From: Flavobacteriaceae bacterium
Lineage (GTDB): Bacteria > Bacteroidota > Bacteroidia > Flavobacteriales > Flavobacteriaceae
Reading direction: 5' to 3'
NCBI GenBank assembly: GCA_017852075.1
Contig: JAFMLQ010000007.1
Span: 1 to 58,381 of the forward strand
Length of the DNA stretch: 58,381 nucleotides
Below, in pieces: positions 38,726 through 54,093 of the stretch. The stretch's first letter is position 1; every line of letters starts with the position of its first letter. The translations under genes and the position numbers were made by a program. A model generated the notes under the pieces. The model had not been told where the DNA came from and made no database searches. It saw only the letters and a program-made list of their open reading frames with translations.

Positions 38726-40327
38726 ATGAAAAAAACAAAATATTTCTTTTTGATCATACTTTTAGGATTTACTATTTCCTGCTATCAAGATGATTTTTTA
38801 AAAGACGAATTACTCGCCAATAATTCGGTTGAATTTCTCTATTCTAGCCCTCAAGGAATAGGAAATGCGGTCGTGGGGCTCTATGCCCTAAATCGCGAGC
38901 CCTACCAACGGGACTGGTTCAACGGTGCAATTCCGCTGGTTCTTCAGGCAAAAGGTGACCTCTCTGCGGGTATTGATGGCGAAATTTCCCTGTTTAGTAA
39001 TTGCTTTTGGGGATGTGGTATTGATGAAGACTATGGTGCCGAAGCAGCCTACGGATACTTTTGGGGCCATAATTATAAAATTATAGACATTACCAATAAT
39101 ATAATTTCGGGTGGCGAATTACTGCTTGCGGAAGGTAATACTGACCCTTCTTTAATTAAAAATATAGCTGAAGCTAAGACTTTTAGAGCACATGCTTACT
39201 TTACTCTGTACAGACTGTTTAAAAACATTTATATTAAAACAGAACCTACTACTCCAGAAACCGCTTTTGACCGCCCGCAAAGCCGCTCATCTAAAGAAGA
39301 GATTTTTAGCCTAATTCGTGAAGACTTGAATTTTGCGAGTGAAAATCTATCTTATACAACTGATGAGTTTGGAAGATGGACAAAAGCAGCCGTGGACCAT
39401 GTGAGAGCCAAGGTTGAGATGTGGGAAAAAAATTATGCTGTCGCAGCAGAAATAGTTGACGATATCATCGCCAACAGTCCTCATGCACTAGTGAATGTAA
39501 ATCAAGTTTTTCAAGGGGATCTTCAGCATGGAGAAACGCTTTTTGCAATCAACTTTAAAAGAAATGCGATTGGAGGAGGTGCATGGCATCAACTGAACTG
39601 GCAGACCGTAGCGCATTATTCCGCTGTGCCAGGATTGGTTCAATCTCTTGAAAATGGAGGTGATGGATTTGGATTTATCACACTCAATCCTTACGCCGTA
39701 AATCTTTTGAATAGTAATGCCAATGACCAACGGATTGGAAACTATTACATTTTTGAATATCGCTACAACGACGAGAAGATGTTGCCCGCAGGTAAAAAAA
39801 TTGGAGACCCCCTTGATCTCTATAAAAACGAAGCACAAGACGATGATTTCTTCATGTACTTTAAAAGACAAAGCCCTGGGGTCATAAAATTCTTTGATGA
39901 TGGAGTGGATCCTACGGACAGAATGCATTTTAAAAATATAATGGTATATCGCTTAGCTGAAACCTATTTGATTGGAGCGGAGGCCCATTTGGAAAATGGC
40001 AACACCTCAAAATCAAGAGAATACCTCAATGCGGTTCGTGAACGTGCTGGGATTGCACCAATATCGTCCGCTTCCATAGAAACTATTTTAGAAGAAAGAG
40101 CAAGAGAGCTTGCCTTCGAAGGACAACGCTGGTACAGCCTAAAACGAAGAGGAATATTGTATGACTATTTAATGGATCACATGAATTCTGAACTGTTGAA
40201 TGAATACTATGCCAGAAATCATGTAAATCCAAAGACCGTTTATAGACCTCATATGGTAAATCTTCCTATTCCTCAAGGAGTGTTGGATTTGTTGGGGTCA
40301 AATTACCCTCAAAATGAAGGATATTAA
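38726..40327 (+). CDS. SusD-like outer-membrane glycan-binding lipoprotein
   Basis: A 533-residue lipoprotein (GFTISC, Cys19) of the SusD/RagB family, the lid of the SusC channel. The N-terminal domain holds tetratricopeptide-like helices (AEAKTFRAHAYFTLYRLF at ~142-159). The RagB C-terminal part holds YRLAETYLIGAEAHLENG and REYLNAVRERAG, then LAFEGQRWYSLKRRG. It ends with the usual LPIPQGVLDLLG-type motif. Gap to the SusC stop is 10 bases. Gap to the next gene is 36 bases. All are in one transcript. Confidence 0.96.
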   Translation: MKKTKYFFLIILLGFTISCYQDDFLKDELLANNSVEFLYSSPQGIGNAVVGLYALNREPYQRDWFNGAIPLVLQAKGDLSAGIDGEISLFSNCFWGCGIDEDYGAEAAYGYFWGHNYKIIDITNNIISGGELLLAEGNTDPSLIKNIAEAKTFRAHAYFTLYRLFKNIYIKTEPTTPETAFDRPQSRSSKEEIFSLIREDLNFASENLSYTTDEFGRWTKAAVDHVRAKVEMWEKNYAVAAEIVDDIIANSPHALVNVNQVFQGDLQHGETLFAINFKRNAIGGGAWHQLNWQTVAHYSAVPGLVQSLENGGDGFGFITLNPYAVNLLNSNANDQRIGNYYIFEYRYNDEKMLPAGKKIGDPLDLYKNEAQDDDFFMYFKRQSPGVIKFFDDGVDPTDRMHFKNIMVYRLAETYLIGAEAHLENGNTSKSREYLNAVRERAGIAPISSASIETILEERARELAFEGQRWYSLKRRGILYDYLMDHMNSELLNEYYARNHVNPKTVYRPHMVNLPIPQGVLDLLGSNYPQNEGY

Positions 40328-40363
40328 GATAATTACTAAATCAATTCAATTAAACAATAAATT

Positions 40364-42034
40364 ATGAAAATAAATCGCTTTTTAATTTTAACATTTTCCT
40401 TTTTTGCAGTGACTCTTTCCTGTGAAAAAGACGTGGTAGAGGAGACTCCTATCATAACTGTAGAACCAACCCCTGAACCTACAACTCCTGATGATTCTGG
40501 AACAGACACCTCAGGATCCGATTTTGTGGAAGGTATTGACCCTAATTTAAATGATGAGCCTATTACATTTGAAGAATATGGCCCTAGTTTTGATGTTGAT
40601 AATGCTCAAGCTGCTGACAGATTAGAAGGTAACTGGGGATTTTTTGGAGGTGTAGATGATGCGCAAATTACAGTAGAGTATGCTGAAAACCCAGACTCAG
40701 ATAATGATGTAAACAGTTCTGAAAGAGTGGTCAAAGTAACTGAACCAGTTGGGGTTCAATCTTGGGCAGGTTTTTATTTTATGCTAGAAGAAAAAGTTAA
40801 TTTCCCAAGTGGAAAAGAGGCTATTTCTTTTCAATTTTACTCTCCAGAACCAGGACATGTAGTACTTCTAAAACTAGAAGATGAACTTGCTAACGAAACT
40901 GAGGGTAAAAAATCTACTGGAGATTTATTCGCTGAAACTACAGGAACAGGATGGGAAACTGTAGTCTTCAACATTCCAGATAAAGAGGGTCGTGATGGTT
41001 TTTACAACACCTTTACCTTGATCTTGGGTTATGGTTTAACAAATGAAGAGGAGACCACATACTATATCGATAATTTTGAATTTGCAACACCAGTAGAAGT
41101 AATCGCAGCAGCAGCTCCAACTACAGCTCCTGAAGTTCCTACATATAGTGCTGATAATGTAATTTCAATCTTCAGTGATGCATATACTGCAGTGGAAGGA
41201 ATTGACCTTAATCCAAATTGGGGACAGAGCACAGTAGTGACCCAAGAGACGATTGACGAAAATACAGTCTTGAAATACGAAAATTTAAATTACCAAGGAA
41301 CTGTTTTTGAAACTGCTATCGATGTATCCTCGAAAACGAAACTAAATATCGACTACTTTACAGGAGATGCATCAACACTAAAGTTTTTCTTAATTAGCCC
41401 TGATGGTGATGATGCTGATGAAGCTGCCGAGGAAAAAGCTTTTGAACTTGATCTTACAAATGAAGGACAATGGAATAGAGCTATTATCGATTTAACTCAT
41501 TTTTCTGATGTAGTAGATCTTTCCGATGTATTCCAGATTAAAGTCGAAGGAACAGGAACTGTTTATTTTGATAACATCTTCTTCTATGGAGGTGAGTCAG
41601 ATTCTGGAGATAACTTTACCAATGAATACGGAGGCGCTTTTGGAGGCGCTGTTGTAGTGGGTACAACCTTTAATTTTCCTTCTTCTTCAGAAGTATGGGC
41701 AGGTTTTGCAGAATTGTCACCAGCGACACTTTCCTTCCCTCATGGTGGAAAAATTACATTTAATGGAGCTACCGCTGGAACGGATGTTGACCTTAACTTT
41801 AAATTTGAGCGTCTAGGTCACAATGCAGAAGGTAATGGTGCTGCAGATACAGAACCTTCCTTCTCTACAGCTAATATTACGGTTTCTGGAACAGATGCAA
41901 CTTCATACACTGTAACTATTCCTGCTCAAGATGAAGCATATACTTTTGCTTCTCATTTATTGTATCTTGTTACTCAAGATGCAGAAGTAACTCTTACCGA
42001 TATTATTATTACTTCATATCACGAAGAGCAATAA
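40364..42034 (+). CDS. Surface glycan-binding lipoprotein of the SusE/F position
   Basis: A 556-residue lipoprotein (AVTLSC, Cys ~20). An acidic Thr/Pro/Asp-rich linker covers ~25-65. Then come three beta-sandwich-like units: ~70-240 ending YYIDNFEFA, ~262-415 ending VYFDNIFFYGG, and ~425-556. The first two share the [YV]Y[FI]DN-F-F ending found in carbohydrate-binding modules, so they look duplicated. In laminarin loci such proteins present glucan to SusCD. No catalytic motif was found. It is followed by a palindromic terminator that starts 28 bases after its stop. Confidence 0.8.
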   Translation: MKINRFLILTFSFFAVTLSCEKDVVEETPIITVEPTPEPTTPDDSGTDTSGSDFVEGIDPNLNDEPITFEEYGPSFDVDNAQAADRLEGNWGFFGGVDDAQITVEYAENPDSDNDVNSSERVVKVTEPVGVQSWAGFYFMLEEKVNFPSGKEAISFQFYSPEPGHVVLLKLEDELANETEGKKSTGDLFAETTGTGWETVVFNIPDKEGRDGFYNTFTLILGYGLTNEEETTYYIDNFEFATPVEVIAAAAPTTAPEVPTYSADNVISIFSDAYTAVEGIDLNPNWGQSTVVTQETIDENTVLKYENLNYQGTVFETAIDVSSKTKLNIDYFTGDASTLKFFLISPDGDDADEAAEEKAFELDLTNEGQWNRAIIDLTHFSDVVDLSDVFQIKVEGTGTVYFDNIFFYGGESDSGDNFTNEYGGAFGGAVVVGTTFNFPSSSEVWAGFAELSPATLSFPHGGKITFNGATAGTDVDLNFKFERLGHNAEGNGAADTEPSFSTANITVSGTDATSYTVTIPAQDEAYTFASHLLYLVTQDAEVTLTDIIITSYHEEQ

Positions 42035-42049
42035 AAAAAGTTAATTTTA

Positions 42050-43255
42050 TTGAGACTATATACGATCCCACCTAGGTGGGATCGTTTTTATCCATCTAAT
42101 ACAAAAATTATCAAATATTTATATCCCCTTTTTGTAATACTCTGCTTCAATGCACTTCTCACTTCATGTAGTAAAGACTCAAATGCTGACTTAGAAGTAA
42201 ATTATACATTAGGAGAAAACGGTTCTGTTCGCGTCACTGCAGAAGCACCTCAGGCTGTTGTGTATCGCTTTTCATTTGAACCCAACGCTGTTTTTGAAAA
42301 TAGTTCAGGGGATATTGAATATAACTATGCTAATAAAGGAAATTACACCTTAGGGATTTGGGCTTTTTATGATTCAGAATACAATTCCTTTAGCTATAAA
42401 ACGATAGATTTAGAAATAGTTAATGCAAATGGAAATACTACAACTGTTGTGGATCCAAATAACATTGACACTTCAGAAGAAACAACTGTCTATACTGACT
42501 TGAATCTGGTATGGAATGATGAATTTAATTATGAAGGAGCTCCTTCAGATAAAAAATGGCATCATCAATACATCCCCATCATAGGGGGAAGTTGGGCTAA
42601 TGGTGAAAAACAACATTATACCGCACGAATGGACAATTCATTTGTCAGTGATGGAACGCTAAAAATTGTAGCTAAAAGAGAAACGTATACTTATGAAGGG
42701 AGCAGAAAATCCTTTACCTCTGCAAGGCTAAACTCTAAGTTTGATTTGGAGTATGGAAGAATTGACGTACGAGCCAAATTACCTAAATCAGAGGGGACCT
42801 GGCCCGCAATTTGGACCCTAGGAACTAATGTTGGTGAACGAGGAAACTACTACGGTACCTCTGCAGGAAATGTAGGCTGGCCTGCTTGTGGTGAAATTGA
42901 TATTATGGAACAAAATGGCAGCGATAAAGAAACACTTTATGGGACTTTTCATTGGGCTGATTCTTCTTCTGGAGATAATGCATCGTATGGGCAGACAAAA
43001 ACAGCTTATGAATTAGGAATAAATAATCCCGTTGATGATTTTCACCTTTATTCCTTAGTTTGGACACCTTCATCTCTTAAAATATTTGTAGATAATACGC
43101 TTTTAGTGCAACTGTCAAATTCAGCGAGTGTCCCATTTGATAACCCTCATTATCTGATTTTAAATATAGCGATGGGTGGAACCTTAGGAGGTACCATTCC
43201 CAACTCCTTTTCACAAGATACTATGGAAATAGATTTTGTGCGTTTTTACCAATAA
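42050..43255 (+). CDS. GH16 family endo-beta-glucanase (laminarinase type), lipoprotein
   Basis: A 401-residue (from TTG at 42050) surface or periplasmic enzyme. No ATG or GTG lies between the upstream stop and the signal peptide; options are this TTG or a rare ATT/ATC near 42107. Lipoprotein signal LCFNALLTSC (Cys40 counted from TTG). A PKD/Ig-like domain spans ~46-125. The GH16 domain spans ~150-401 with Trp-rich WPAIWTLG (251-258) and the catalytic CGEIDIMEQ: Glu282, Asp284, Glu287 (ExDxxE, the beta-bulge form of laminarinases). It cuts beta-1,3-glucan (laminarin) into pieces for SusCD. It is last in the locus, after the palindrome. Confidence 0.9.
   Translation: MRLYTIPPRWDRFYPSNTKIIKYLYPLFVILCFNALLTSCSKDSNADLEVNYTLGENGSVRVTAEAPQAVVYRFSFEPNAVFENSSGDIEYNYANKGNYTLGIWAFYDSEYNSFSYKTIDLEIVNANGNTTTVVDPNNIDTSEETTVYTDLNLVWNDEFNYEGAPSDKKWHHQYIPIIGGSWANGEKQHYTARMDNSFVSDGTLKIVAKRETYTYEGSRKSFTSARLNSKFDLEYGRIDVRAKLPKSEGTWPAIWTLGTNVGERGNYYGTSAGNVGWPACGEIDIMEQNGSDKETLYGTFHWADSSSGDNASYGQTKTAYELGINNPVDDFHLYSLVWTPSSLKIFVDNTLLVQLSNSASVPFDNPHYLILNIAMGGTLGGTIPNSFSQDTMEIDFVRFYQ
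42062..42089 (+). terminator. Palindromic terminator inside the 5' end of the GH16 reading frame
   Basis: A 24-base perfect palindrome (arms ACGATCCCAC and GTGGGATCGT, centre CTAG) followed by Ts. It lies 28 bases after the glycan-binding lipoprotein stop and 12 bases after the TTG at 42050, so it either ends the SusC-SusD-lipoprotein transcript or attenuates transcription into GH16. Confidence 0.85.
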
Positions 43256-43276: not shown

Positions 43277-44176
43277 CTAATTGACATTTCTGCGCACAGT
43301 ACTCTGCCCTGGATCTGAAACTTCAAAGCTTTCAATATAGCCACGGTCTTGGAGGGTTACAAAAGCCGTAGTTCCTTCCTTTCCACCAAAAGCAATATTG
43401 GAAACATTTTTCCCTTTGAGTTCAATTTCCTTTAAAATTTTTCCTTCAGGAGAAACTTTCACTACTGTTCCCTTGCCATAACGAGTGATGTATAAATTCC
43501 CTTTTACATCACATCGCATACCATCCATGCCAAAATCTTCAAATGAAATCAACAATCGCTTATTTTCTAAATTTTTTGAATCTGTGATATCAAATGCCCA
43601 AACGTTTCTTTGCACACTTTCATTGACATACAGTGTTTTACCATCAGGGCTAATTTCAATACCATTAGTGGTACCCATTTCATCCACCATCAATTCAAAA
43701 TTCCCTTTTTCAACCTTCCAAACTTTCCCGGTACTAGCACCCCAATTTGGATCAGAAGCAAATAATAAATCTCCCGCACCAAGGGTTAAATCATTTGGCT
43801 GATTTGCATTCGGTTCGTGAGCGTAAACAGTAACTGCTTTGGTTTCTGGATCCACTTCTAACACATTATGTCCTGTATAATCTGCCAAAAACAAGTTTCC
43901 CTGTTCATTGATTCGTATTCCGTTGGCCGTACTACCCTCAGGCAATTGGTCGATAAAAAGAGAAAAGTTTCCAGAAGTATCAATTTTACCAATTGTTCCT
44001 GAATGGTCTGGATTTACAAAATAAAGATTTCCCTTTTGGTCCACAGCTGGCCCTTCTAAACCTCGGGTAAAAGATCCCACGTATGCGTAGTCTGTGGCAA
44101 TATATAAAGGTTCTGATTCTGTACAAGCGCCTAAAAGAAATAAACTAAAGACCGAAAAAAAATGTACTGTTCTCAT
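43277..44176 (-). CDS. SMP-30/gluconolactonase-like lipoprotein
   Basis: A 299-residue exported six-bladed propeller (lipoprotein signal FLLGAC, Cys18). Blocks typical of the SMP-30/Gnl/LRE family: LEGPAVDQKGNLYFVNPDHSG, then GTTNGIEISPDGKTLYVNES and FEDFGMDGMRCDVKGNLYITRYG. The metal-site residues Glu and Asn/Asp of lactonases are plausible (E in FTRGLEGPAVD, N in TNGIEISPDGK, D in GMDGM). It is likely a sugar lactonase at the cell envelope. It is transcribed away from the CBM9-like gene and convergent with GH16 (21-base gap). It is the natural partner of the dehydrogenase at 44977. Confidence 0.86.
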   Translation of the reverse strand: MRTVHFFSVFSLFLLGACTESEPLYIATDYAYVGSFTRGLEGPAVDQKGNLYFVNPDHSGTIGKIDTSGNFSLFIDQLPEGSTANGIRINEQGNLFLADYTGHNVLEVDPETKAVTVYAHEPNANQPNDLTLGAGDLLFASDPNWGASTGKVWKVEKGNFELMVDEMGTTNGIEISPDGKTLYVNESVQRNVWAFDITDSKNLENKRLLISFEDFGMDGMRCDVKGNLYITRYGKGTVVKVSPEGKILKEIELKGKNVSNIAFGGKEGTTAFVTLQDRGYIESFEVSDPGQSTVRRNVN

Positions 44177-44238
44177 GCTTTTATTGATATTAGATTTATT
44201 TTATCCAATGTACAGATTATTTTTTGTAAGTTTAGTAT

Positions 44239-44952
44239 ATGAGATGGTATGTATTTCTTCTTTTTGTAGTTGTTTTTTCTTCTTGCACTTCAACTAATCC
44301 TGCTATGCTTTACGTTCAGCAAATCAATCCTCCTGAAAAACTAAGTTTTGAATCCATTTCTACCTCGTTAGAAATTGAAACAGAAAAAATCCCCATCGAT
44401 AAGCTAAATTGGGAAGCTTTTGCATATAAACCTGATGTTGCCTTTAGGATTGGGCATTCTGAAAACGTTTTATATTTAAAGTTTTATGTGTCTGAAGCTC
44501 ATATCCTAGCCCAGCACAGTAAGCCGAATTCCTCCACACACCGAGACAGTTGTGTAGAATTTTTTATAGATCCTGATCAAAGTGGAGGGTATTATAATTT
44601 TGAGTTCAACTGTATTGGAACCACCCATCTGGCTTATGGTCCCAACCGTCATAAACGCAGTTTTGTAGCTGAAGAGAAAATTCTAGATCAAGTCTTTACG
44701 GCTTCCACTTTAGGCACTACTCCTTTTGAGGAAAAATCAGGCGCTTTTCAATGGGAAATGGTCGTTGCCCTTCCTGCATCTCTGTTTGTTCATCATCCTG
44801 ATTTAAATTTTAAATCATTAAACTCTAAAGCCAACTTCTACAAATGTGGTGACGATACAAGTCTACCACATTACCTGAGTTGGAACAAAATAAACAGTCC
44901 TAAACCCGATTTTCATCTCCCCGAATTTTTTGGATCACTTTTATTTGAGTAA
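44239..44952 (+). CDS. CBM9-like carbohydrate-binding lipoprotein
   Basis: A 237-residue lipoprotein (VVVFSSC, Cys16). The mature domain (~30-235) resembles the family-9-like carbohydrate-binding module: AFRIGHSENVLYLKFYVSEAH, then RDSCVEFFIDPDQSGGYYNFEFNCIGTTHLAYG and the SGAFQWEMVVALPASLF end. In many Bacteroidota this domain sits next to sugar oxidation or uptake genes. It would hold a sugar or oligosaccharide near the envelope enzymes. It heads the six-gene plus-strand run (gap 24 bases). Confidence 0.8.
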   Translation: MRWYVFLLFVVVFSSCTSTNPAMLYVQQINPPEKLSFESISTSLEIETEKIPIDKLNWEAFAYKPDVAFRIGHSENVLYLKFYVSEAHILAQHSKPNSSTHRDSCVEFFIDPDQSGGYYNFEFNCIGTTHLAYGPNRHKRSFVAEEKILDQVFTASTLGTTPFEEKSGAFQWEMVVALPASLFVHHPDLNFKSLNSKANFYKCGDDTSLPHYLSWNKINSPKPDFHLPEFFGSLLFE

Positions 44953-44976
44953 TTTCACTAGAAACAATTATTTATT

Positions 44977-46734
44977 TTGAATTCAAAAAAAATTATTACG
45001 AAAAGGACTTTCATTGGAAAATGGATGGTTTTATTCCTTACTATATTGGTTTTTCAAAACTGCCAAAACCCTTCTGTAATACAAGGACCCTTATTTCTGC
45101 CTGAAGGATTTGAATCTAAAGTTTTTATTGACTCTATAGCAGAAACAACTAGACATATTGCGGTTTCACCAAATGGAAATGTGTATACCAAATTCAAAAG
45201 AACATCTGAAGAAGGAGCTTTAGCCGCGCTTCAAGATTTAGATAAAGATGGAGTGGCTGAACGGATCATTAAATTTGCAAATGACCCATCAATTAAAGGG
45301 AGAGGCTACGCAACTGCCGCTCGTATATACAAAGGGTATCTCTACTTCAGTAGTGAACTCGCTGTGTATCGTTACAAATTAGATCCTGAAAATTTAGTCC
45401 CCAACGGCCCATTAGAAACCGTTGTCATTGATGATCACCCTCATGGAATGCACGAACATATCGGGAAGCCAATTGCTTTTGACAATAAAGGGAATCTATA
45501 TGTTCCTTTTGGAGCTCCCTCCAACTCCTGTCAAAATCCAAAAAGAACCCCACTTAGCCCAGGTGTATACCCTTGTCCGCAACTCGAAAAACACGGTGGG
45601 ATTTGGGTTTTTGATGCAGAAACTTTAAATCAAACTCAAGAAGATGGAAGGCGTTACGCCACAGGGATTCGAAGCATCGTCGGGATGGATTGGAATTCAG
45701 ATGATGAAAGTCTTTATGCGGTAGTACACGGGCGTGATGACTTATATCGTTTATGGCCCGATCGATATACCCCTTGGGATAGTGCTGTACTTCCCTCAGA
45801 AGAGTTTCTGAAAATAGAGGAAGGTGATAATTTTGGATGGCCCTATTGTTATTATGATCAAATACAAGGAAAACGTGTCTTATCACCTGAATATGGTGGG
45901 GATGGGAAACAGGTCGGTGATTGTCCAGACTTCAAACCTCCTGTAATGGGTTTTCCAGGACATTGGGCTCCCAACGATTTGGTTTTTTATCAAGGTGATG
46001 CGTTTCCAGACTATTATAAAAATGGCGCCTTTATCGCTTTTCATGGATCAACCAACCGTGCACCTTACCCGCAATCGGGCTATTTTATTGGCTTTGTTCC
46101 GTTTAAAAATGGTGTCCCAACCGGTGAAGTGGATATTTTCGCAGATGGCTTTGCTCAGGTAGATCCTATTATCAGTGTTCGTGATGCTGTTTATCGTCCT
46201 ATGGGAATTGCATTTGCGCCAGACGGAACGATGTATATTGGAGATACTGAAAAAGGAAGAATTTGGAGTGTTAAGTTTACAGGGGATAAAAATCAATTTG
46301 GGAAAGCTTCCCTTGAAAAAATGGAAGCACGTAAACTCCTCTCCCACTTTAGAACTCCAGATCCGGATCAAGATCATCTAGGCGAAAAAAACCTAACTGG
46401 AGGACAATTGATTTACAAAACTTATTGCGCGGCTTGTCATCAAAGAAATGGAAAAGGTGCCTCTGGTAGATTTCCTCCTCTAGATAAAACCGATTGGGTT
46501 GTAGGTGACAAAGAGCGTTTGGTCCATCTAGTTCTCAACGGAATGGAAGGTCCCATTAAAGTAAATGGAGAGGATTACAACAGCATGATGCCTCAACACA
46601 GCTTTCTCAAAGATGTAGAAATTGCAAAAGTATTGACCTACATTAGAAAAAACTTCGGAAATGATGCTACGGCTGTAACAGTCGAAGAGGTTAAAAAATT
46701 CCGTGAATCCAATACCAAAAACCAACCAAAATAA
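44977..46734 (+). CDS. PQQ-type pyranose dehydrogenase (AA12/L-sorbosone-like) fused to cytochrome c
   Basis: A 585-residue envelope enzyme. TTG start at 44977 (no ATG before the lipoprotein signal TILVFQNC, Cys29). A propeller at ~40-450 of the L-sorbosone/AA12 type has LPEGFESKVFIDSIAETTRH, EEGDNFGWPYCYYDQ and RPMGIAFAPDGTMYIGDTEKG. A C-terminal cytochrome c domain has CAACH at 484-488 and a Met near 537. It would oxidise a sugar C1 to the lactone, passing electrons through its own haem to the respiratory chain. The PQQ site is inferred from family; the sugar is unknown. Next in the operon is the amidohydrolase (7 bases). Confidence 0.86.
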   Translation: MNSKKIITKRTFIGKWMVLFLTILVFQNCQNPSVIQGPLFLPEGFESKVFIDSIAETTRHIAVSPNGNVYTKFKRTSEEGALAALQDLDKDGVAERIIKFANDPSIKGRGYATAARIYKGYLYFSSELAVYRYKLDPENLVPNGPLETVVIDDHPHGMHEHIGKPIAFDNKGNLYVPFGAPSNSCQNPKRTPLSPGVYPCPQLEKHGGIWVFDAETLNQTQEDGRRYATGIRSIVGMDWNSDDESLYAVVHGRDDLYRLWPDRYTPWDSAVLPSEEFLKIEEGDNFGWPYCYYDQIQGKRVLSPEYGGDGKQVGDCPDFKPPVMGFPGHWAPNDLVFYQGDAFPDYYKNGAFIAFHGSTNRAPYPQSGYFIGFVPFKNGVPTGEVDIFADGFAQVDPIISVRDAVYRPMGIAFAPDGTMYIGDTEKGRIWSVKFTGDKNQFGKASLEKMEARKLLSHFRTPDPDQDHLGEKNLTGGQLIYKTYCAACHQRNGKGASGRFPPLDKTDWVVGDKERLVHLVLNGMEGPIKVNGEDYNSMMPQHSFLKDVEIAKVLTYIRKNFGNDATAVTVEEVKKFRESNTKNQPK

Positions 46735-46741
46735 TATTTAT

Positions 46742-47983
46742 ATGAAATCAAATTTATTTAAACTTCTCTTTTTTATTGTCTTATTCTCTTTTTGTACTTC
46801 TGGAGCACAGCAATACGACCTTGTTATTATTAATGGACATGTAATTGATTCTAAAAACAAGTTGGATCAAAAAATGGATGTGGCCATAAGTCAGGGAAAA
46901 ATTGTTGCAATAGAAAAATCCATCTCTCCTTCGGAGGGGAAAAAAGTAATTGATGCTGAAGGATTGATTGTAAGCCCGGGCTTGATTGATTTACACAGTC
47001 ACAATTTTCACGGAACAGAACCCAAAAAATACTTAGCCAATAGTTTTACAGCATTACCTCCAGACGGCTTTACCTTTAGAAATGGGATTACTACCCTAGT
47101 CGATGCAGGTAGTCCAGGATGGCGAAATTTTGATACCTATAAAAAACAAACAATCGATCAATCCAAGACTAGAGTTCTCGCTTTCTTAAATATTGTTGGA
47201 AATGGAATGGCAGGAGGATCTATAGAGCAAAATGTCGAAGATATGGATCCTGAGACAAGTGCTGCTTTTGCCAAAAAACATTCCGACTATATTGTTGGTT
47301 TCAAGTTGGCACACTTTAGTGGGTATAACTGGTCGCCTACAGAACGTGTAGTAAGCGCTGGCGAACTAGCAAATATGCCTGTAATGATCGATTTTGGTGG
47401 AAGCCAACCCGAACTTCCGCTCGAAAAATTACTATTGGAAAAATTAAGACCTGGAGATGTCTTTACCCATGCCTATGCACAAGTAAAAGGAAGAACTCCC
47501 ATAGTGGATGAAACGGGAAAAGTAAGACCTTATGTGTTTAAAGCACAAGAAAGAGGAATCGTCTTTGATGTGGGTCACGGTGGAGGAAGCTTTGTTTTTG
47601 ATCAGGCAATTCCCGCCATGCAGCAAGGATTGAAACCTCATACCATTAGTACCGACTTACACACTGGGAGTATGAATGGAGGAATGAAAGGTCTGTTGAA
47701 TGTGATGTCCAAATTTCTAAACTTCGATATGCCGTTATCTGAAGTGCTTGCTGCTGTAACTTGGCATCCTGCCCAAGTGATTCAAAAACCTCAACTAGGG
47801 AATTTGAGTGTGGGTGCGGAAGCAGATGTAGCTATACTCAGAGTTCAAAAAGGCGACTTTGGTTTTGTAGATACTTCAAAAAAGAAAATGAAAGGAACCC
47901 AAAAGTTAATTTGTGAGCTGACTTTACGAGAAGGTAATGTTGTTTACGATTTAAACGGTTTGGCGAGCCCTCTTTGGAAATAA
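46742..47983 (+). CDS. Exported amidohydrolase/deacetylase family metallohydrolase
   Basis: A 413-residue protein from ATG 46742. Signal peptide 1-22 (FCTSGA before QQYD). The amidohydrolase core is complete: His85 and His87 in DLHSHNFHG, Lys188 in VGFKLAHFSG (likely carboxylated), His243 in FTHAYAQ, His279 in VFDVGHGGG and Asp305 in STDLHTGS. It resembles the deacetylase/dihydroorotase branch that is linked in other bacteria to D-glucosaminate catabolism genes (the EF0837-type neighbours of SelA-like lyases). I infer N-deacetylation of an oxidised amino sugar or of an N-acyl-D-amino acid. Operon gap to the transporter is 6 bases. Confidence 0.85.
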   Translation: MKSNLFKLLFFIVLFSFCTSGAQQYDLVIINGHVIDSKNKLDQKMDVAISQGKIVAIEKSISPSEGKKVIDAEGLIVSPGLIDLHSHNFHGTEPKKYLANSFTALPPDGFTFRNGITTLVDAGSPGWRNFDTYKKQTIDQSKTRVLAFLNIVGNGMAGGSIEQNVEDMDPETSAAFAKKHSDYIVGFKLAHFSGYNWSPTERVVSAGELANMPVMIDFGGSQPELPLEKLLLEKLRPGDVFTHAYAQVKGRTPIVDETGKVRPYVFKAQERGIVFDVGHGGGSFVFDQAIPAMQQGLKPHTISTDLHTGSMNGGMKGLLNVMSKFLNFDMPLSEVLAAVTWHPAQVIQKPQLGNLSVGAEADVAILRVQKGDFGFVDTSKKKMKGTQKLICELTLREGNVVYDLNGLASPLWK

Positions 47984-47989
47984 TAATAT

Positions 47990-49066
47990 ATGAAACAACT
48001 TCATAAAATTTCACTGTTACTATCTCTCCTATTAGGTTTAATGAGCCTCTATTTTTTCATTAGCCAACAAGCTTCTGATGCTGGGGTTTGGTTGGTCGGA
48101 TTTTTTCTGTTTTTGGCTCTCGCCTTTAGAGGAATCTCATCGCTAAAAGGGCTGTCCTTTACTGTGTTGATTTTTGCAGCGGTAAGTGTTTCTATGTATT
48201 TTCCTGCTCCATTTGTGGAATTGGGAGGTATGCAAATGAAAGTCCTTATCGTTCCCTTGTTACAAATCATTATGTTTGGGATGGGTACTGCTATGAGTCT
48301 AAAGGATTTTTACGGTGTCATCAAAATGCCAAAAGGTGTTTTGGTAGGCTTGTTATGTCAATTTAGCATCATGCCTTTGGTTGGTTTTTCATTGGCAACC
48401 CTTTTTCAATTCCCTCCAGAAATTGCTGCAGGAGTGGTGTTAATTGGTTCTTCTCCTAGTGGATTGGCTTCCAATGTTATGGCCTATTTAGCAAATGCTA
48501 ATGTTGCCCTGTCTGTAACCCTAACTGCAGTAGCTACCGTATTGGCTCCTTTTATGACGCCTTTATTAATGGAATTTTTTGCAGGCTCCTTTGTTCCCAT
48601 AGATTTTTGGGCTATGATGTTGAGTATTGTGAAGATTGTTATTCTTCCAATAGCTTTAGGACTACTTTTCAATCATTTTTTCCATGGAAAAACACCATGG
48701 CTTGACAAAAGTATGCCCATCATCTCTATGGCAGCCATCGTATTAATCATTACCATTATCACCGCCGCAGGAAGAGACAATTTATTGACCATAGGTGGGT
48801 TTCTGATTTTGGCCTCAATCATTCACAATATTTTGGGATATTTTTTCGGCTATTGGGGATGCAGGATTTTGAAAATGAAAGAACAAGACTGTCGTACCAT
48901 TGCGATTGAAGTGGGCATGCAAAATGGTGGTCTGGCTTCGGGAATTGCACTAGAAATGGGCAAGGTAGCAACCGTAGGATTAGCTCCTGCAGTTTTTGGT
49001 CCGTGGATGAATATCTCAGGGTCTTCTTTGGCCTTGTGGTGGCGCAACAAAAAAATTATAACCTAA
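47990..49066 (+). CDS. BASS family sodium/organic anion symporter
   Basis: A 358-residue inner-membrane protein with ~10 hydrophobic spans, of the bile acid:Na+ symporter family. IMFGMGTAMSLKDFYGVIKMPKGVLVG is the family's first conserved block. VLIGSSPSGLASNVMAYLANANVALSVTLTA holds the core sodium-binding crossover, and IAIEVGMQNGGLASGIA the second. Relatives transport bile salts, pyruvate or pantoate. Here it is the only transporter in a run of exported enzymes, so it should import the organic acid those enzymes leave. The last codons are 1 base from the RraA-like start. Confidence 0.92.
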   Translation: MKQLHKISLLLSLLLGLMSLYFFISQQASDAGVWLVGFFLFLALAFRGISSLKGLSFTVLIFAAVSVSMYFPAPFVELGGMQMKVLIVPLLQIIMFGMGTAMSLKDFYGVIKMPKGVLVGLLCQFSIMPLVGFSLATLFQFPPEIAAGVVLIGSSPSGLASNVMAYLANANVALSVTLTAVATVLAPFMTPLLMEFFAGSFVPIDFWAMMLSIVKIVILPIALGLLFNHFFHGKTPWLDKSMPIISMAAIVLIITIITAAGRDNLLTIGGFLILASIIHNILGYFFGYWGCRILKMKEQDCRTIAIEVGMQNGGLASGIALEMGKVATVGLAPAVFGPWMNISGSSLALWWRNKKIIT

Positions 49067-49067
49067 A

Positions 49068-50000
49068 ATGACCTTACAAATGAATTTTTTAAAACTTAAC
49101 ATAATCCTTTGCCTCTGTACAATAGGGTTTGTAAAGGCTCAAGATCTATCAGTAGAACAAATGCGTTTTTTAACCCCTCTTTGGGAAGGCGATCGTTTTG
49201 ACGACGGAAGACCTAGAGTAGGTGACGACATTTTAAAGCGAATGAAACAGGTCAGTATTGAAGAGGCCTGGGGTGTTTTGAGAAATGAAGGCTATCACAA
49301 CCAATTTGAAAGTGGATGGGAACCCCTCCACGATGACATTCCTATGGTGGGACGTGCACTTACTGTACAATACCTTCCCAATCGTCCAGATGTAGCGCAA
49401 CAAATCATCAAAAAAGGAAAGGCAGAGGGCGCAGTAGGAAATACCAACTCATGGCCCATCGATCGATTGGTGGAAGGCGATATTTATGTAGCAGATGGAT
49501 TTGGAAAAATTGTAGATGGAACGCTGATTGGAGATAATTTAGGAAATGCCATTTATGCCAATTCTAAAAACGGAGTAGTCTTTAATGCCTCCAGTAGAGA
49601 CCTAGAAGGGCTTTCACAAATCGAAGGTTTTAATGCCTTTGTTCGTGGGTGGCATCCCTCTTTTTTGACTGAAGTCATGCTCCTTAATATCAACTTTCCT
49701 ATTCGAATAGGCGCTGCTACGGTCATGCCTGGTGATGTGATCTTGGCCAAGAAAGAAGGAGTGGTTTTTATCCCCGCACATCTGGCAGAAAAAGTCGTTG
49801 TAACCTCCGAGGTGGTTCGCCTACGAGATCTCTTTGGAATTAGCAGATTGAAAGAGGGCATCTATACTCCAGGACAGATAGACAATAAATGGACAGATGA
49901 AATAGAAAAAGATTTTTCCGACTGGTTAAAAGATCACATGGACGAGTTACCCGTCTCAAAAGATCAAATTAAAGCCTTGCTTGAAAAAAGAACTTGGTAA
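49068..50000 (+). CDS. Exported RraA-like protein (putative 2-keto acid aldolase)
   Basis: A 310-residue protein with a cleavable signal (CLCTIGFVKA before QDLS). The body belongs to the RraA/HMG-aldolase superfamily: DDIPMVGRALTVQYLPNRPD, GNTNSWPIDRLVEGDIYV, GDNLGNAIYANSKNGVV and Arg177-Asp178 in NASSRDLEGL, the residue pair used by HMG/CHA aldolases for pyruvate and metal. Members with aldolase activity cleave 4-hydroxy-2-keto acids to pyruvate. A secreted form is unusual; the family is normally cytoplasmic. It starts 1 base after the BASS stop. It cannot be the RNase E regulator given its location. Confidence 0.84.
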   Translation: MTLQMNFLKLNIILCLCTIGFVKAQDLSVEQMRFLTPLWEGDRFDDGRPRVGDDILKRMKQVSIEEAWGVLRNEGYHNQFESGWEPLHDDIPMVGRALTVQYLPNRPDVAQQIIKKGKAEGAVGNTNSWPIDRLVEGDIYVADGFGKIVDGTLIGDNLGNAIYANSKNGVVFNASSRDLEGLSQIEGFNAFVRGWHPSFLTEVMLLNINFPIRIGAATVMPGDVILAKKEGVVFIPAHLAEKVVVTSEVVRLRDLFGISRLKEGIYTPGQIDNKWTDEIEKDFSDWLKDHMDELPVSKDQIKALLEKRTW

Positions 50001-50031
50001 CAAATTATTTAACAATCAAATATTAAAACAG

Positions 50032-50499
50032 ATGAAACTAAATGAACAAAGAAGATCCAGTTTAAAAAAAATAGCCTATGCTGTAACTGGAATTTTTGGC
50101 TTAAACGTTGTAAAAGCCGCTGAAAACAACACTTCTAAAAAAATAGTAGGGACGGTGGTAGAAGATCAAAACATCCCTCTTTTTTCTGGAGCTGTAAAAC
50201 ATGGAAATACACTTTACATCGCAGGTAAAGGAGCCCATTTTGAAGGTGATATCAAATCCCATACAGATCATGTATTAAAAGAACTTGAAAAGGAACTTGT
50301 ACGAAATGGATCTTCCATGGAACAAGTGCTAAAAGTCAATGTATATCTTGCAGATTTGGCCGATTACAAAGGTATGAATGAAGTCTTTCGAGGGCGATTT
50401 GGCGACAGCCCTCCAGTACGAACTACAGTAGCAACTTACGGAGGAGTTCCAGGAAATTCTCTGGTTGAAATGGACTGTATCGCCGCTATTAACTCTTAA
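50032..50499 (+). CDS. RidA family protein with twin-arginine-like signal
   Basis: A 155-residue protein from ATG 50032. The first ~30 residues look Tat-like (EQRRSSLKK, then a hydrophobic run and VVKAAEN). The domain holds the conserved Arg in PVRTTVATYGG and the Glu in VEMDCIAAI, the residues RidA uses to bind and hydrolyse imine/enamine. RidA normally works in the cytoplasm on 2-aminoacrylate-like products. An exported one next to a PLP lyase candidate implies it clears the lyase's unstable enamine outside the cytoplasm. The gap to the RraA-like stop is 31 bases. Confidence 0.86.
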   Translation: MKLNEQRRSSLKKIAYAVTGIFGLNVVKAAENNTSKKIVGTVVEDQNIPLFSGAVKHGNTLYIAGKGAHFEGDIKSHTDHVLKELEKELVRNGSSMEQVLKVNVYLADLADYKGMNEVFRGRFGDSPPVRTTVATYGGVPGNSLVEMDCIAAINS

Positions 50500-50509
50500 A
50501 CTATATACA

Positions 50510-51730
50510 ATGATCAACAGAAGAAAACTTTTAAAATCACTCACCGCGGTTCCTTTTCTTGGGAGCTTTATGGGATATCAAGAATTGAGTGCAAAAACAG
50601 CTTTAACAGAAACAATTGGCGCCACGCTAGAACGTGACTTTTTCAAGGAATTGGGACTTCGCACCTTTATCAATGCGGCTGGAACCTATACTTCAATGAC
50701 AGGCTGTTTAATGCCAAAAGAAGTCACCGATGCTATAGGGTATGGAGCCACAGAATATGTCAACCTAGATGACTTGCAAGATAAGGTCGGAGATCGTATT
50801 GCCGAATTATTGTCCTGCGAGTACGCAACAGTAACTTCTGGATGTTTCGGAGCGATGTCCATCGCTATGGCAGGGGTTCTTTGTGGAAATGATCCGAAAA
50901 AAGTAAAACAGCTCCCGAATACAGAAGGGTGGGCGAATGAAGTAATCATTCAAGAAGGACATCAGATTGGTTATGCACAAGCCTTAACGAATGTTGGTGC
51001 CAAAGTAGTTTTGGTTAAAACCGCAAAAGAGATGGAAAAAGCCATTTCCAAAAAAACAGCCATGATGTGGTATTTAAATGCCAATACAGAGAATGGGGAA
51101 GTGAAATGGGAAGAATTTGTTGCCATAGGTAAAAAACACAACATTCCTACTTTTATCGATTGTGCAGCAGATGTGCCACCCGTATCTAATTTGTTCCGTT
51201 TCACAGAAATGGGATTTGATATGGTGGGATTTTCTGGAGGAAAAGGACTTCGCGGACCTCAAAGTGCAGGTCTCTTATTGGGTAAAAGAAAATATATCGA
51301 AGCTGCAAGAATGCACACGCCTCCTCGTGGAGAAACCATCGGAAGAGGAATGAAAGTCAACAAAGAAGAGGTCTTAGGAATGATGGTTGCTCTGGAACTT
51401 TATCTAAAGAAAGACCACGACAAGGAATGGAAACTTTGGGAAGATCAAATTGAATTGATCAGTAGTAGTGCACTTGCAGTGGACGGCGTTCGAACAGAAA
51501 TTCACGTGCCAAAGCATGCCAATCATGTCCCTAGTTTACGTATCCAATGGGATGAGAGCAAGGTTAAAATTACACCTGATGAAGCACGAAGACAACTGAG
51601 AGAAGGGCATCCTTCTATTCAAACGGTAGGAAACAAGTCCACAATAGGAATTACTACTTGGATGATGGTACCTGGCCAAGAACGAATTGTAGCCAAAAGA
51701 GTTCATGAAATTTTGAAAAGCGCTACCTAG
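50510..51730 (+). CDS. Tat-exported SelA-like PLP enzyme (putative D-glucosaminate-type ammonia-lyase)
   Basis: A 406-residue protein from ATG 50510. Clear twin-arginine signal NRRKLLKSL with a hydrophobic core (TAVPFLGSFMGY). The PLP fold type I body is of the SelA-like/DgaE type: GLRTFINAAGTYTSMTGCLMP, then VNLDDLQDKVGDRIAELL and the PLP lysine Lys245 in GFSGGKGLRGPQSAGLLLG. Relatives remove ammonia from amino-sugar acids by elimination. Tat export fits a cofactor loaded before transport. It starts 10 bases after the RidA stop. Selenocysteine synthesis is unlikely: it lacks the tRNA-binding N-domain and is exported. Confidence 0.86.
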   Translation: MINRRKLLKSLTAVPFLGSFMGYQELSAKTALTETIGATLERDFFKELGLRTFINAAGTYTSMTGCLMPKEVTDAIGYGATEYVNLDDLQDKVGDRIAELLSCEYATVTSGCFGAMSIAMAGVLCGNDPKKVKQLPNTEGWANEVIIQEGHQIGYAQALTNVGAKVVLVKTAKEMEKAISKKTAMMWYLNANTENGEVKWEEFVAIGKKHNIPTFIDCAADVPPVSNLFRFTEMGFDMVGFSGGKGLRGPQSAGLLLGKRKYIEAARMHTPPRGETIGRGMKVNKEEVLGMMVALELYLKKDHDKEWKLWEDQIELISSSALAVDGVRTEIHVPKHANHVPSLRIQWDESKVKITPDEARRQLREGHPSIQTVGNKSTIGITTWMMVPGQERIVAKRVHEILKSAT

Positions 51731-51753
51731 AGGGTTTCTTTTGGTTTGAGAAA

Positions 51754-54093
51754 TTAGACTACTACAATTTCGTCAGCATATAAAAATGCAGGTTTACCTG
51801 CATTAATATGCCAAGTAGGCATCTCTAGTATGCTCTCTGCATGCACCTTGATATATCGTGTCTTTCTACTCGTAAATGTACTGCTGAAGTTGTGGAAAGG
51901 CACCTTAACGATGTCAGGGTTTTTAGCAGGATCTGGCTCATGTGGATTGTTCACTATAACCGTTTCAGAATAAGTTTCGCCGTCTTCAGAGAGGGCATAA
52001 GAAACATATTTAGGAAGAATCAATTGGTGCCAGTTGGCTTGTGCTTGAACATTGAGAAAATCCATTTGCACACTATTGATTTCTTGAACAGCTCCAAGGT
52101 CTAAGACAAAGTCCATATGTGTTCCTTTATACGCTACCCAATTGGCGTCTTTATCAGGAAATCTCCACGACTCAAAAGCACCAAAAATCCCATTGGTAAA
52201 GCGGGATACTTCATCGACTCCCTTGCTTGGTACAGTAATGGGTATTATTTTCTTTTGATAGGAAAGTGCCTGTTTCATTTGTTCCATTCGGTCAAACATT
52301 CTTTTGAAATTAAGACCGTAATCTTCTAGTGAGATGGCGCGTTCTCCGATACGTTCAATTCCAGCCTTTTTCGCTTGCGTAAGGAAGCTTGAAACTTTTT
52401 CTTTCATTTCGGGTTTTACGATAACCTTTCCTGAAGAATTAAGGGTATAAAAACTACCGGGTTTTCCCAAAGGAATCTGTCCGGCAATTTGAATTTCAGC
52501 GATCTCTAAAGGCAGTCGCGCTTCTCGGATACGTTTCAAGTAAATAGGTTCTGATTGAACTTCATTTTGTGCCTGATCAAACAACTCATTGTACTCCTCC
52601 ATCATCTCAGGAGATAAGTAATTATCTACAGCGTCGCGAGGGTCTCCAAAAATATTCAGTCTAAAATTGTCTCGAAGTACGGCTTGACGCATTTGATCAA
52701 TATATTGACGAACAAAAGGGGCCCCTAATCCATAATAGCCCTTGAGAAAATCGTCGATGATGGCATCAGGATCAGCTTCAGGGTTCCACATTAACTTAGA
52801 AATGAGGTAAGCTCTAAGATGCCCGAACTCCCCTTTATTTCCTGTGGCCTGCATAAACAAGGCTCCAACCCTATTGTTGATGTAAAACTTGATGTTGGGA
52901 CCAATGGTATGTAAATTTGGAAAAGGGCTTACAGGATTGGCGAATTGAATGTTGTAATCCCAAATCAAAATATCTTCACTCATTTTTCCCCAGTCTTGTA
53001 AATCACGAGTGAATGCTGGGTCGGTATCAAAAACGGCCTTTTCGCGTGTGCTTTCGATATTGCAGAGCATGATGTTGACATTGGGTTCTGCTATAATATT
53101 GCTGGGTGCTGCTCTGGTGTACCAATAGGCTAGGGTTGAAATAATTTTATCGGGAAATTCTCGTGCCACTTTATTGACAAACCAGACCATAGAACCACTT
53201 GGTAGGTTTCCATATTTTTTGTCTAATGCAGCACATGGGCCGCATTGACAATATTTGTCATTGTCATTTTGGCTAACCGACCAATATTTTGCTTTGGGGT
53301 TGGCTTCTATTCTTTTTCGAAGATCCTCCACTAACGTCTGGAACATCGCTTCGTTTGATAAGCACAATTGGGTTACGGGATTTCGCTCTCCGTCGATTAA
53401 GGAAAAATACTCGGGATGGGTCTTCCCGTATTTTTCTGGGGGGACTAAAACCTCAAAAGTATGTACAAAAAGTCCCCAAGAATCTCGTGAAGAAAGTTTG
53501 TGCCACGAGGCATAGGCTTCGTCCCGTGCATCGTAATAAGAGGTTGTTCTGTATTTGATTACGGGTATTTTCACTTCATTATCAGGAAGGGTAAAGGAAG
53601 CTGTGTTGGGGAGCATCACCGCATCATCTGCACTGTATTTTCGGAAACCAAAAGATTCTAGTAACGAATACACTCCATAAAGTAAGCCCTTTTCCGACCC
53701 TCCTGTGATCAAAAAATCATTCCCCAAATGATGGAATTGATAGCCGTCCTCTTCCAAGGGATTTGTATCAAGTTGGGCTGATGAAGCCATAAGGGTATTA
53801 CCTAGGTAAATCGCATTCTCCCCTTGATAGCGGTCTTCTTGAACAACGGTTAGCTCTGGACTTGCTATTTTGGACAAAAACGCACGTAATTCTCCTGCAG
53901 CATTTTGTTCTTGAAGACTTGCATCTTTCGGGATCACAATACTAAAGTGAGTCTTCCCTTCAAGGATTAATTTTTTTAGGGTACCAAAGTCGCCTTTACA
54001 CGCATAATGAGATAAAGTAGCTAGTCCACCTAATGCAAGTCCTGAGGTTTTTAAAAACGAAGCTCGTGAAATTAAATTTTGTTTAGGTTCCAT
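51754..54093 (-). CDS. DUF4838 protein with GH20b-like N-domain and C-terminal F5/8-type domain
   Basis: A 779-residue envelope protein. The N-terminus has a degenerate Tat-like motif (SRASFLKTSG) and a Cys (SHYAC). Residues ~40-165 resemble the GH20/GH67 N-terminal domain (FSIVIPKDASLQEQNAAGELR). The large central region (~165-500) matches DUF4838: YFSLIDGERNPVTQLCLSNE and the four-Cys WSVSQNDNDKYCQCGPC. The C-terminal ~130 residues look like a discoidin/F5-8C sugar-binding domain (GIFGAFESWRFPD to TRYIKVHAES). Probably a glycoside hydrolase-like enzyme of unknown activity. It is convergent with the plus-strand operon (23-base gap), and both ends of the cluster are thus envelope sugar-binding proteins. 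Confidence 0.78.
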   Translation of the reverse strand: MEPKQNLISRASFLKTSGLALGGLATLSHYACKGDFGTLKKLILEGKTHFSIVIPKDASLQEQNAAGELRAFLSKIASPELTVVQEDRYQGENAIYLGNTLMASSAQLDTNPLEEDGYQFHHLGNDFLITGGSEKGLLYGVYSLLESFGFRKYSADDAVMLPNTASFTLPDNEVKIPVIKYRTTSYYDARDEAYASWHKLSSRDSWGLFVHTFEVLVPPEKYGKTHPEYFSLIDGERNPVTQLCLSNEAMFQTLVEDLRKRIEANPKAKYWSVSQNDNDKYCQCGPCAALDKKYGNLPSGSMVWFVNKVAREFPDKIISTLAYWYTRAAPSNIIAEPNVNIMLCNIESTREKAVFDTDPAFTRDLQDWGKMSEDILIWDYNIQFANPVSPFPNLHTIGPNIKFYINNRVGALFMQATGNKGEFGHLRAYLISKLMWNPEADPDAIIDDFLKGYYGLGAPFVRQYIDQMRQAVLRDNFRLNIFGDPRDAVDNYLSPEMMEEYNELFDQAQNEVQSEPIYLKRIREARLPLEIAEIQIAGQIPLGKPGSFYTLNSSGKVIVKPEMKEKVSSFLTQAKKAGIERIGERAISLEDYGLNFKRMFDRMEQMKQALSYQKKIIPITVPSKGVDEVSRFTNGIFGAFESWRFPDKDANWVAYKGTHMDFVLDLGAVQEINSVQMDFLNVQAQANWHQLILPKYVSYALSEDGETYSETVIVNNPHEPDPAKNPDIVKVPFHNFSSTFTSRKTRYIKVHAESILEMPTWHINAGKPAFLYADEIVVV

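Follow-up and report, generated by a model that had tools for sequence, protein, structure and literature searches.

Organization of the gene cluster

We analyzed a 58,381-nucleotide stretch of DNA from a member of the Flavobacteriaceae (the window), corresponding to contig C78 of an 89%-complete genome of 1.91 Mb. Between positions 43277 and 51730 it carries a cluster of eight genes, centered on a pyridoxal phosphate (PLP) enzyme, a RidA-family protein and an amidohydrolase, whose products probably oxidize, deacetylate and deaminate N-acetylhexosamines outside the cytoplasm. The genes, by position and strand, are as follows.

43277..44176, minus strand: SMP-30/gluconolactonase-type lactonase (Pfam SGL, 132.8 bits), with a lipobox-like LLGAC motif; divergent from the plus-strand run
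44239..44952, plus strand: CBM9_2 protein, accessory (Pfam PF16011, 221 bits), with a lipoprotein-like leader
44977..46734, plus strand: AA12-like dehydrogenase (pyranose/aldose, pyrroloquinoline quinone (PQQ) type) fused to cytochrome c (Pfam GSDH and Cytochrom_C); TTG start, signal peptide
46742..47983, plus strand: metallohydrolase of the amidohydrolase/deacetylase family (NCBIfam NF006689, 448.5 bits, cut-off 371), with a Sec-like leader
47990..49066, plus strand: BASS-family carrier, PanS-like and integral to the membrane by family (Pfam SBF, 142.1 bits, cut-off 24.3)
49080..50000, plus strand: RraA/4-hydroxy-4-methyl-2-oxoglutarate (HMG) aldolase-like protein (Pfam RraA-like, 65.9 bits), with a Sec-like leader
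50032..50499, plus strand: RidA-family protein (Pfam Ribonuc_L-PSP, 67.4 bits), with a twin-arginine leader
50510..51730, plus strand: DgaE/SelA-related PLP enzyme (NCBIfam TIGR01437, 193 bits, cut-off 385), with a twin-arginine leader

These genes, coordinates and domains had been assigned in a first-pass annotation of the DNA, and domain profile searches agree with it. The tight plus-strand run that it described is also present, comprising the seven genes from that of the CBM9 protein to that of the PLP enzyme, including the BASS gene, with successive gaps of 24, 7, 6, 13, 31, and 10 nt. The starts of the amidohydrolase (46742), RraA (49080, with an in-frame ATG also at 49068), RidA (50032), and PLP (50510) genes are refined ones. 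The conserved core is the six genes from the dehydrogenase through the PLP enzyme. The nearest matches of the PLP protein come from metagenome-assembled genomes of Flavobacteriaceae, and a scan for promoters and terminators gave a site count that is not above that of shuffled sequence.

Conservation and co-occurrence of the cluster genes

Relatives of the PLP protein were sought with six exact peptide patterns in one genome per species across 84,980 species, a scan that finds close relatives only and is uninformative on phyla outside the Bacteroidota. It returned 49 loci with PLP proteins from 94% to 53% identical, all Bacteroidota by record title. Neighbors were counted at 37 loci, those where the DNA extends 6.5 kb or more upstream and 0.9 kb or more downstream of the PLP gene; the 12 shorter loci were excluded. 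Relatives of the amidohydrolase are found near the PLP gene at all 37, of the dehydrogenase at 36, of the BASS carrier and of RidA at 34 each, of RraA at 30, of the CBM9 protein at 29, and of the lactonase at 21, and a second RidA protein is encoded at 33. The second RidA is the commonest neighbor family other than those of the query (42 of all 49 loci, mostly directly after the PLP gene, with the runner-up family at 11 of 49). Among the 37 loci, one (L042) is without BASS and both RidA genes, its RraA match being weak, and two (L045 and L048) are without BASS, RraA, and the first RidA. At the short loci L039 and L040 the DNA examined contains a pair of amidohydrolase genes and none for BASS, RraA, or RidA.

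A second sample consisted of 395 Bacteroidota genomes picked independently of the query. A genome was counted as PLP-positive if it had a TIGR01437 match with E below 1e-30, as a loose threshold matched 270 of the 395 genomes; the weak and mostly partial matches below the threshold look like cross-hits to class-V aminotransferases. By this measure the PLP enzyme is present in 8 genomes; the amidohydrolase/deacetylase family occurs in 12, relatives of RraA in 24, of the dehydrogenase in 52, and of the second RidA in 203. All eight PLP-positive genomes, including that of the window, match all five families, although partly at a distance from the PLP gene (2.3 Mb for the dehydrogenase relative of G134). 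The co-occurrence of PLP enzyme and deacetylase (8/8) has a hypergeometric value of 4e-14, and at genus level, with 7 PLP-positive and 8 deacetylase-positive of 171 genera, of 1e-11, neither of which is a strict probability because of the kinship of the genomes. The stretches around the PLP gene in the seven other PLP-positive genomes contain the amidohydrolase and RidA in 7, the lactonase and dehydrogenase in 6, BASS and the second RidA in 5, RraA in 4, and CBM9 in 1; the deacetylase, PLP enzyme, and RidA often have paralogues there. As shown by these counts in loci and sampled genomes, the tightest partners are the PLP enzyme, the amidohydrolase, and RidA, and the dehydrogenase and second RidA belong to common families that are also used by the system.

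The exact order dehydrogenase, amidohydrolase, BASS, RraA, RidA, PLP enzyme is kept at 29 of the 37 loci. The first-pass annotation had named a failure of its seven genes to co-occur as one finding that would overturn its proposal, and the proposal came through both surveys. The gene set is found in marine and soil Bacteroidota and is carried by named organisms such as Ulvibacterium marinum, Flagellimonas, Cyclobacterium, and Chitinophaga japonensis. Four genomes of a single genus have the deacetylase and no strong PLP match (L104-L107, L119-L121). The neighbors of the haloarchaeal relatives L117 and L118 differ and gave no information on the substrate.

Export signals

Leaders were judged by motif or crude pattern and by eye. 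On this basis the lactonase and every soluble product of the run begin with a leader of the lipobox-like, Sec-like, or twin-arginine kind, and these leaders are conserved across homologues, which bears out the earlier statement that all of these proteins carry export signals. The homologues of the amidohydrolase and RraA have Sec-like leaders, and those of the dehydrogenase and lactonase mostly lipoprotein-like ones. Residues R5 and R6 of the PLP enzyme are invariant in all 60 sequences of at least 390 residues (that of the window included), in which the mean frequency of the top residue is 0.55 in the leader compared with 0.76 in the core. The export signals look real because the twin arginines are invariant while other leader residues vary. 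Both arginines are also present in 49 of 52 RidA proteins, the remainder having KR (one) or RK (two). TatC of the twin-arginine translocation (Tat) system is encoded in the same genome, so that the PLP enzyme and RidA, with their twin-arginine leaders, are predicted Tat substrates. The Tat system exports folded, cofactor-bearing proteins, hence a PLP enzyme would be an expected passenger; the RidA protein, which is cofactor-free, also bears such a leader.

The PLP enzyme and RidA proteins

The PLP enzyme scores 165.5 and 193.4 bits against family models, as a relative and not as a member. A characterized enzyme with which it can be compared is the D-glucosaminate-6-phosphate ammonia-lyase (DGL) of Salmonella. 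The Schiff-base lysine is kept, as K246 is invariant (60/60) and aligns with K213 of the DGL chain (Lys-217 in the text of PMC9529869). In DGL, a docking model puts R301, R332, and R346 at the substrate phosphate, while Arg226 is reported near the carboxylate and His163 as the proton donor (PMC9529869). The three phosphate-site columns have no Arg in any of 49 PLP members examined, as would be expected with an unphosphorylated substrate. The Arg226 column is occupied by K in 40 members, by R in 8, and by N in the remaining one. The His163 column is a gap in all 49 and the His162 column has His in 8, although these columns lie in a gapped loop and their placement is approximate. Two leaderless relatives from Rhizobium and Aminobacter plasmids retain His162, His163, R301, and R332 and not R346. 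By these residues the window enzyme is not a DGL, and it looks like a relative suited to a substrate without a phosphate. The idea that the loss of His163 explains the presence of RidA was dropped, because these relatives with His163 also have RidA adjacent.

The RidA protein of the cluster has R130 and E146, which are present in 52 of 52 sequences and which we take to be the equivalents of R105 and E120 in archetypal RidA. It therefore has the catalytic Arg and Glu predicted for an enamine/imine deaminase, and it reaches the cut-off of Pfam PF01042 and not that of TIGR00004 (60.2 bits, cut-off 106.25). The second RidA protein (Pfam YjgF_endoribonc/L-PSP) has a lipoprotein-like leader. It is not encoded beside the PLP gene in the window nor in its nearest relatives (L002-L004), and in the window genome it is on contig C9 (15692-16222; L054, L097:5654-6229), where its product is 66% identical to that of L030. 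Minus-strand genes that by eye are SusC/SusD-like adjoin it there. Two RidA proteins that both look exported would argue for enamine/imine chemistry outside the membrane.

The amidohydrolase, dehydrogenase, and lactonase

The amidohydrolase, which we take to be of the cog3964 type, belongs to family NF006689, and its function as a sugar-acid deacetylase is putative; the substrates of characterized cog3964 enzymes are acetyl-(R)-mandelate and N-acetyl-D-amino acids. The metal ligands first read as H85, H87, K188, H243, H279, and D305 are exactly numbered. All 60 sequences share five of these residues, whereas at position 279 there are 48 with His and 12 with Tyr. In L091, L094, L095, L096, and L044-L049 a single cluster contains several paralogues of the deacetylase and of the PLP enzyme. 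Together, Tyr279 and the paralogues suggest that substrates are divided among these enzymes.

The AlphaFold2 (AF2) model of the dehydrogenase (pLDDT 84) has the AA12 enzymes 6i1q, 6i1t, and 6h7t and the pyranose dehydrogenase 6jt5 as its top four Foldseek matches (TM-scores by target of 0.69-0.74), with aldose dehydrogenases next. The predicted fold is thus of the AA12 type, though the score against Pfam TrAA12 is below the cut-off (20.5 bits, cut-off 30.9), and PQQ-dependent oxidation at C1 is putative. The CxxCH motif of the cytochrome is invariant in 16 aligned sequences. A search for PQQ synthesis gave no match in the window genome and likewise none in 14 controls, and is uninformative.

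Hints of an amino-sugar substrate come from a gene of the N-acylglucosamine 2-epimerase family near 5 of the 49 loci (the copy in L008 scores 594.7 bits, cut-off 600) and from two matches to the GH20 family in the window genome, one of them weak, at 18982-21093 of the window. The first-pass annotation had pointed to N-acetylglucosaminate from the breakdown of oxidized chitin; such a source is not needed, and the 89%-complete genome has no match to the AA10 family of lytic polysaccharide monooxygenases (LPMOs).

A counterpart in the Acidobacteriota

The strongest evidence on the substrate class comes from plasmid pACIX902 of Granulicella tundricola (Acidobacteriota), a single example obtained from searches of plasmids only, in which a cluster of the same kind lies in one run (L113:9113-17486). 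It encodes RraA, PLP enzyme, RidA, a second SelA-like PLP enzyme, deacetylase, a 7-bladed lactonase, and a flavin oxidase. Twin-arginine-like leaders are present on both PLP enzymes, RidA, and the lactonase, and Sec-like leaders on RraA and the deacetylase. The lactonase and oxidase are of Pfam families that differ from those of the window, although the lactonase also matches SGL below the threshold. The best solved relative of the oxidase is the N-acetyl-D-hexosamine oxidase 7zzk (543 bits; 153 of 296 columns identical in the first segment). That oxidase (NagOx) converts C1 of N-acetylglucosamine (GlcNAc) to the lactone (PMC9299179), and its Leu251 accommodates N-acetylated sugars (PMC9850908), a position at which the pACIX902 enzyme has Met by our reading of the alignment by eye. 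Since an oxidase and a lactonase of other families fit the same order of chemistry, this independent cluster supports N-acetylhexosamines as the probable substrate class. The genes flanking it, for GH125, alpha-L-fucosidase, GH27, and beta-galactosidase, would fit the breakdown of glycoprotein glycans.

RraA, the BASS carrier, and the end of the proposed pathway

The GD and RD residues of the RraA-like protein align with those of aldolase 3noj and are conserved in 39 aligned sequences. KDG (2-keto-3-deoxygluconate) is a 4-hydroxy-2-oxo acid, and with the 3noj residues kept its retro-aldol cleavage by RraA is plausible. Aldolase activity is not thereby proven, because the RraA protein 3c8o has the same GD and RD residues. 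The model nearest to the BASS carrier is PanS (ketopantoate, pantoate, or pantothenate; NCBIfam, 255 bits, cut-off 400), it has 4n7w and 3zuy as relatives in the PDB, and its cargo may be a 2-oxo acid.

It had been argued that no KDG kinase or 2-keto-3-deoxy-6-phosphogluconate (KDPG) aldolase was visible and that this fitted cleavage by RraA. The observation holds within the window and the argument fails, since a KDG-kinase-like gene followed by a KDPG aldolase gene is present on contig C44 of the same genome (L098:4920-6649). The kinase, of the PfkB family, matches the kinase part of NF041633 at 490 bits (full-length cut-off 700), and the aldolase matches NF005499 at 376 bits (cut-off 275). 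Cleavage by RraA is therefore not forced, and as RraA is not always near the PLP gene, the pathway could end just as well with the keto acid being imported whole. Genes that by eye look like those of exported oxidoreductases are near the C44 pair.

A proposed pathway and its alternatives

We propose the following route. The AA12-like dehydrogenase would oxidize an N-acetylhexosamine at C1 and pass the electrons to its own cytochrome c, and the SMP-30 lactonase would open the lactone to give an N-acetyl-aldonate, from which the amidohydrolase would strip the acetyl group to yield acetate and a 2-amino-2-deoxy-aldonate. The PLP lyase, carried folded with its cofactor by the Tat system, would eliminate water from this unphosphorylated acid, and the exported RidA proteins would hydrolyze the resulting enamine or imine to ammonia and a 2-keto-3-deoxy acid. 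This acid may then be split by RraA to pyruvate and an aldehyde, or it may stay whole, and the BASS carrier would import the 2-oxo acid. A KDG-type acid left uncleaved could be processed further by the KDG kinase and KDPG aldolase whose genes lie elsewhere. The sequence evidence for this scheme consists of gene content, conservation, leaders, active-site residues, and predicted folds, and from it we infer every substrate, the order of the steps, and the cargo. That the whole route takes place outside the inner membrane, starting at an N-acetylhexosamine and yielding pyruvate, acetate, and ammonia, with carbon reaching the cytoplasm solely as a small 2-oxo acid and electrons passing directly to cytochrome c, and that it does so in at least two phyla with differing families of entry enzyme, is a reading we offer tentatively, as one that falls short of probable. 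Of the exported pathway first suggested for this DNA, the functional unit, the leaders throughout, and a chemistry consistent with amino-sugar acids have held up. The argument from a missing kinase has not, and in some genomes RraA and BASS are absent from around the PLP gene.

Several observations weigh against the proposed route. RraA is missing from the PLP stretches of three of the seven other PLP-positive genomes (G203, G249, and G286) and BASS from those of two (G203 and G286), and at 16 of the 37 long loci the DNA examined contains no lactonase gene. Many Bacteroidota that have no PLP gene carry relatives of the dehydrogenase (52/395) or of the second RidA (203/395), and no cluster partner accompanies the second PLP copy of G203 (L090) over the 9.7 kb to the end of its contig. 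The known substrates of AA12 enzymes are sugars other than GlcNAc, and a gene of the glucosamine-6-phosphate isomerase family is also present in the genome, so that the cluster would be an additional route for amino sugars. RidA accompanies the leaderless relatives that retain the DGL proton donor His163. In the Granulicella cluster, no signal peptide is evident on the oxidase, and the deacetylase keeps five ligands with Gln at the position of H279.

The absences of RraA and BASS lower the chance that the whole route lies outside the membrane and raise that of a split pathway, in which the exported steps stop at the 2-keto-3-deoxy acid, BASS imports it whole, and the cytoplasmic KDG kinase and KDPG aldolase finish it, with RraA acting on another epimer, decarboxylating oxaloacetate, or having no catalytic role. 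The adjacent kinase and aldolase genes on C44 are in its favor, as are the absence of RraA from the fetched DNA of 7 of the 37 loci, besides the three genomes above, and the use of KDG kinase by the known oxidative chitin pathway (PMC9537276). We nevertheless regard a split as less likely than not, given that C44 is unlinked to the cluster, that RraA relatives are present somewhere in all eight PLP-positive genomes, and that the clustered RraA proteins have leaders resembling those of the others. The substrates might instead be other N-acyl D-amino or hydroxy acids, with the sugar dehydrogenase and lactonase serving a neighboring task. Leaderless sets on Rhizobiales plasmids (deacetylase, RidA, and PLP enzyme in L115:1964-11106; RidA and PLP enzyme in L114:4806-12067), which have ABC importer genes (annotated in L114 as dipeptide importers) and no annotated sugar oxidase next to them, are in keeping with this, as are the substrates of characterized cog3964 enzymes. 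It is unlikely, however, as an oxidase or dehydrogenase recurs with a lactonase in other families and in another phylum, the oxidase there is a relative of N-acetyl-D-hexosamine oxidase, and all four deacetylase-only genomes have a 7-bladed lactonase gene near the deacetylase.

Two further alternatives concern the PLP enzyme itself. Cap15 (8t7j), which turns glycyluridine into a carboxamide with O2 (PMC6411801), is first by TM-score (0.74/0.82 versus 0.70/0.76 for 7lc0) and second by Foldseek E-value, so that the enzyme might be an O2-dependent decarboxylase/monooxygenase that converts an amino acid to an amide for hydrolysis by another enzyme. We consider this very improbable, since 7lc0 leads both by E-value and by sequence score (121.9 versus 101.7 bits) and the recurrent RidA would be left without a role. 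Least credible of all is that the leaders are non-functional and that the PLP enzyme and RidA are cytoplasmic. The chemistry can presumably run in the cytoplasm, because the two homologues examined from Rhizobium and Aminobacter plasmids are leaderless, but the twin arginines are kept in 60/60 PLP enzymes and 49/52 RidA proteins and recur in the Acidobacteriota cluster, and the partner enzymes carry Sec-like leaders.

Relation to known systems

The chemistry of the extracytoplasmic route is known by analogy, from pathways in which enzymes of such kinds act within the cell, and its location and assembly would be new. In the ong pathway for oxidized chitin of Pseudoalteromonas prydzensis, N-acetylglucosaminate is likewise deacetylated and deaminated to KDG and a RidA-family gene is required for growth, but deacetylation and deamination are predicted to be cytoplasmic, after SSS-type import, the pathway starts from LPMO products and is finished by KdgK, and it has been reported almost exclusively from Gammaproteobacteria (PMC9537276). 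The enzymes of the window have conserved leaders, and the cluster has no KDG kinase gene. The ong deacetylase is of the D-aminoacylase type, and PpOngB (9kb1) matches the window amidohydrolase best over residues 36-101 only (E 4e-4). The Salmonella DgaABCDEF system has a PLP ammonia-lyase with the same SelA-like fold that catalyzes elimination from glucosaminate, with the substrate phosphorylated on uptake by a phosphotransferase system (PTS; PMC9529869), whereas the PLP enzyme of the window carries a Tat leader and lacks both His163 and the Arg cluster for the phosphate. NagOx of Ralstonia solanacearum, which oxidizes GlcNAc and N-acetylgalactosamine (GalNAc) at C1 and has a relative in the Granulicella cluster (PMC9299179, PMC9850908), is a flavin oxidase of a family that differs from the AA12-like dehydrogenase. 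The AA12 pyranose dehydrogenases (6jt5, 6i1q) share the predicted fold of the catalytic domain, while the window enzyme comes from a bacterium and has a c-type cytochrome fused to it. The leaderless Aminobacter and Rhizobium sets (L115, L114) have the same enzyme families, an ABC importer instead of BASS, and a PLP enzyme that keeps His162/His163 and R301/R332. Set against ong and Dga, whose steps it resembles, the cluster would differ in some of its enzyme families, in its compartment, and in beginning with a respiratory step.

In the open-licence literature of PubMed Central (PMC) we found no description of an exported amino-sugar pathway of this kind, and neither periplasmic deamination by a PLP lyase nor a periplasmic RidA step as part of a pathway. 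If the proposal is correct, deamination of sugar acids by a PLP lyase and clean-up of enamines by RidA would occur in the periplasm, and Flavobacteriia would have a non-phosphorylating, respiration-coupled route to the carbon and nitrogen of amino sugars. It would also provide a physiological setting for the oxidation of N-acetylhexosamines; the biological function of N-acetyl-D-hexosamine oxidase has been called unclear (PMC9299179), and the pACIX902 version may give that family a pathway. As named isolates carry the gene set, the pathway is directly testable.

Neighboring genes

The cluster is followed on the minus strand by a gene for a DUF4838 protein (51754-54093), the N-terminus of which is GH67N/GH20b-like. 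We rejected it as a member of the system, since L002-L004, the nearest relatives, are the only other loci at which it adjoins the cluster. Just upstream, at 38726-43255, are genes of the SusD family and GH16 that have the appearance of a separate glucan locus, and a gene of the PdxA family (PLP biosynthesis) is located at 21314-22342 of the window.

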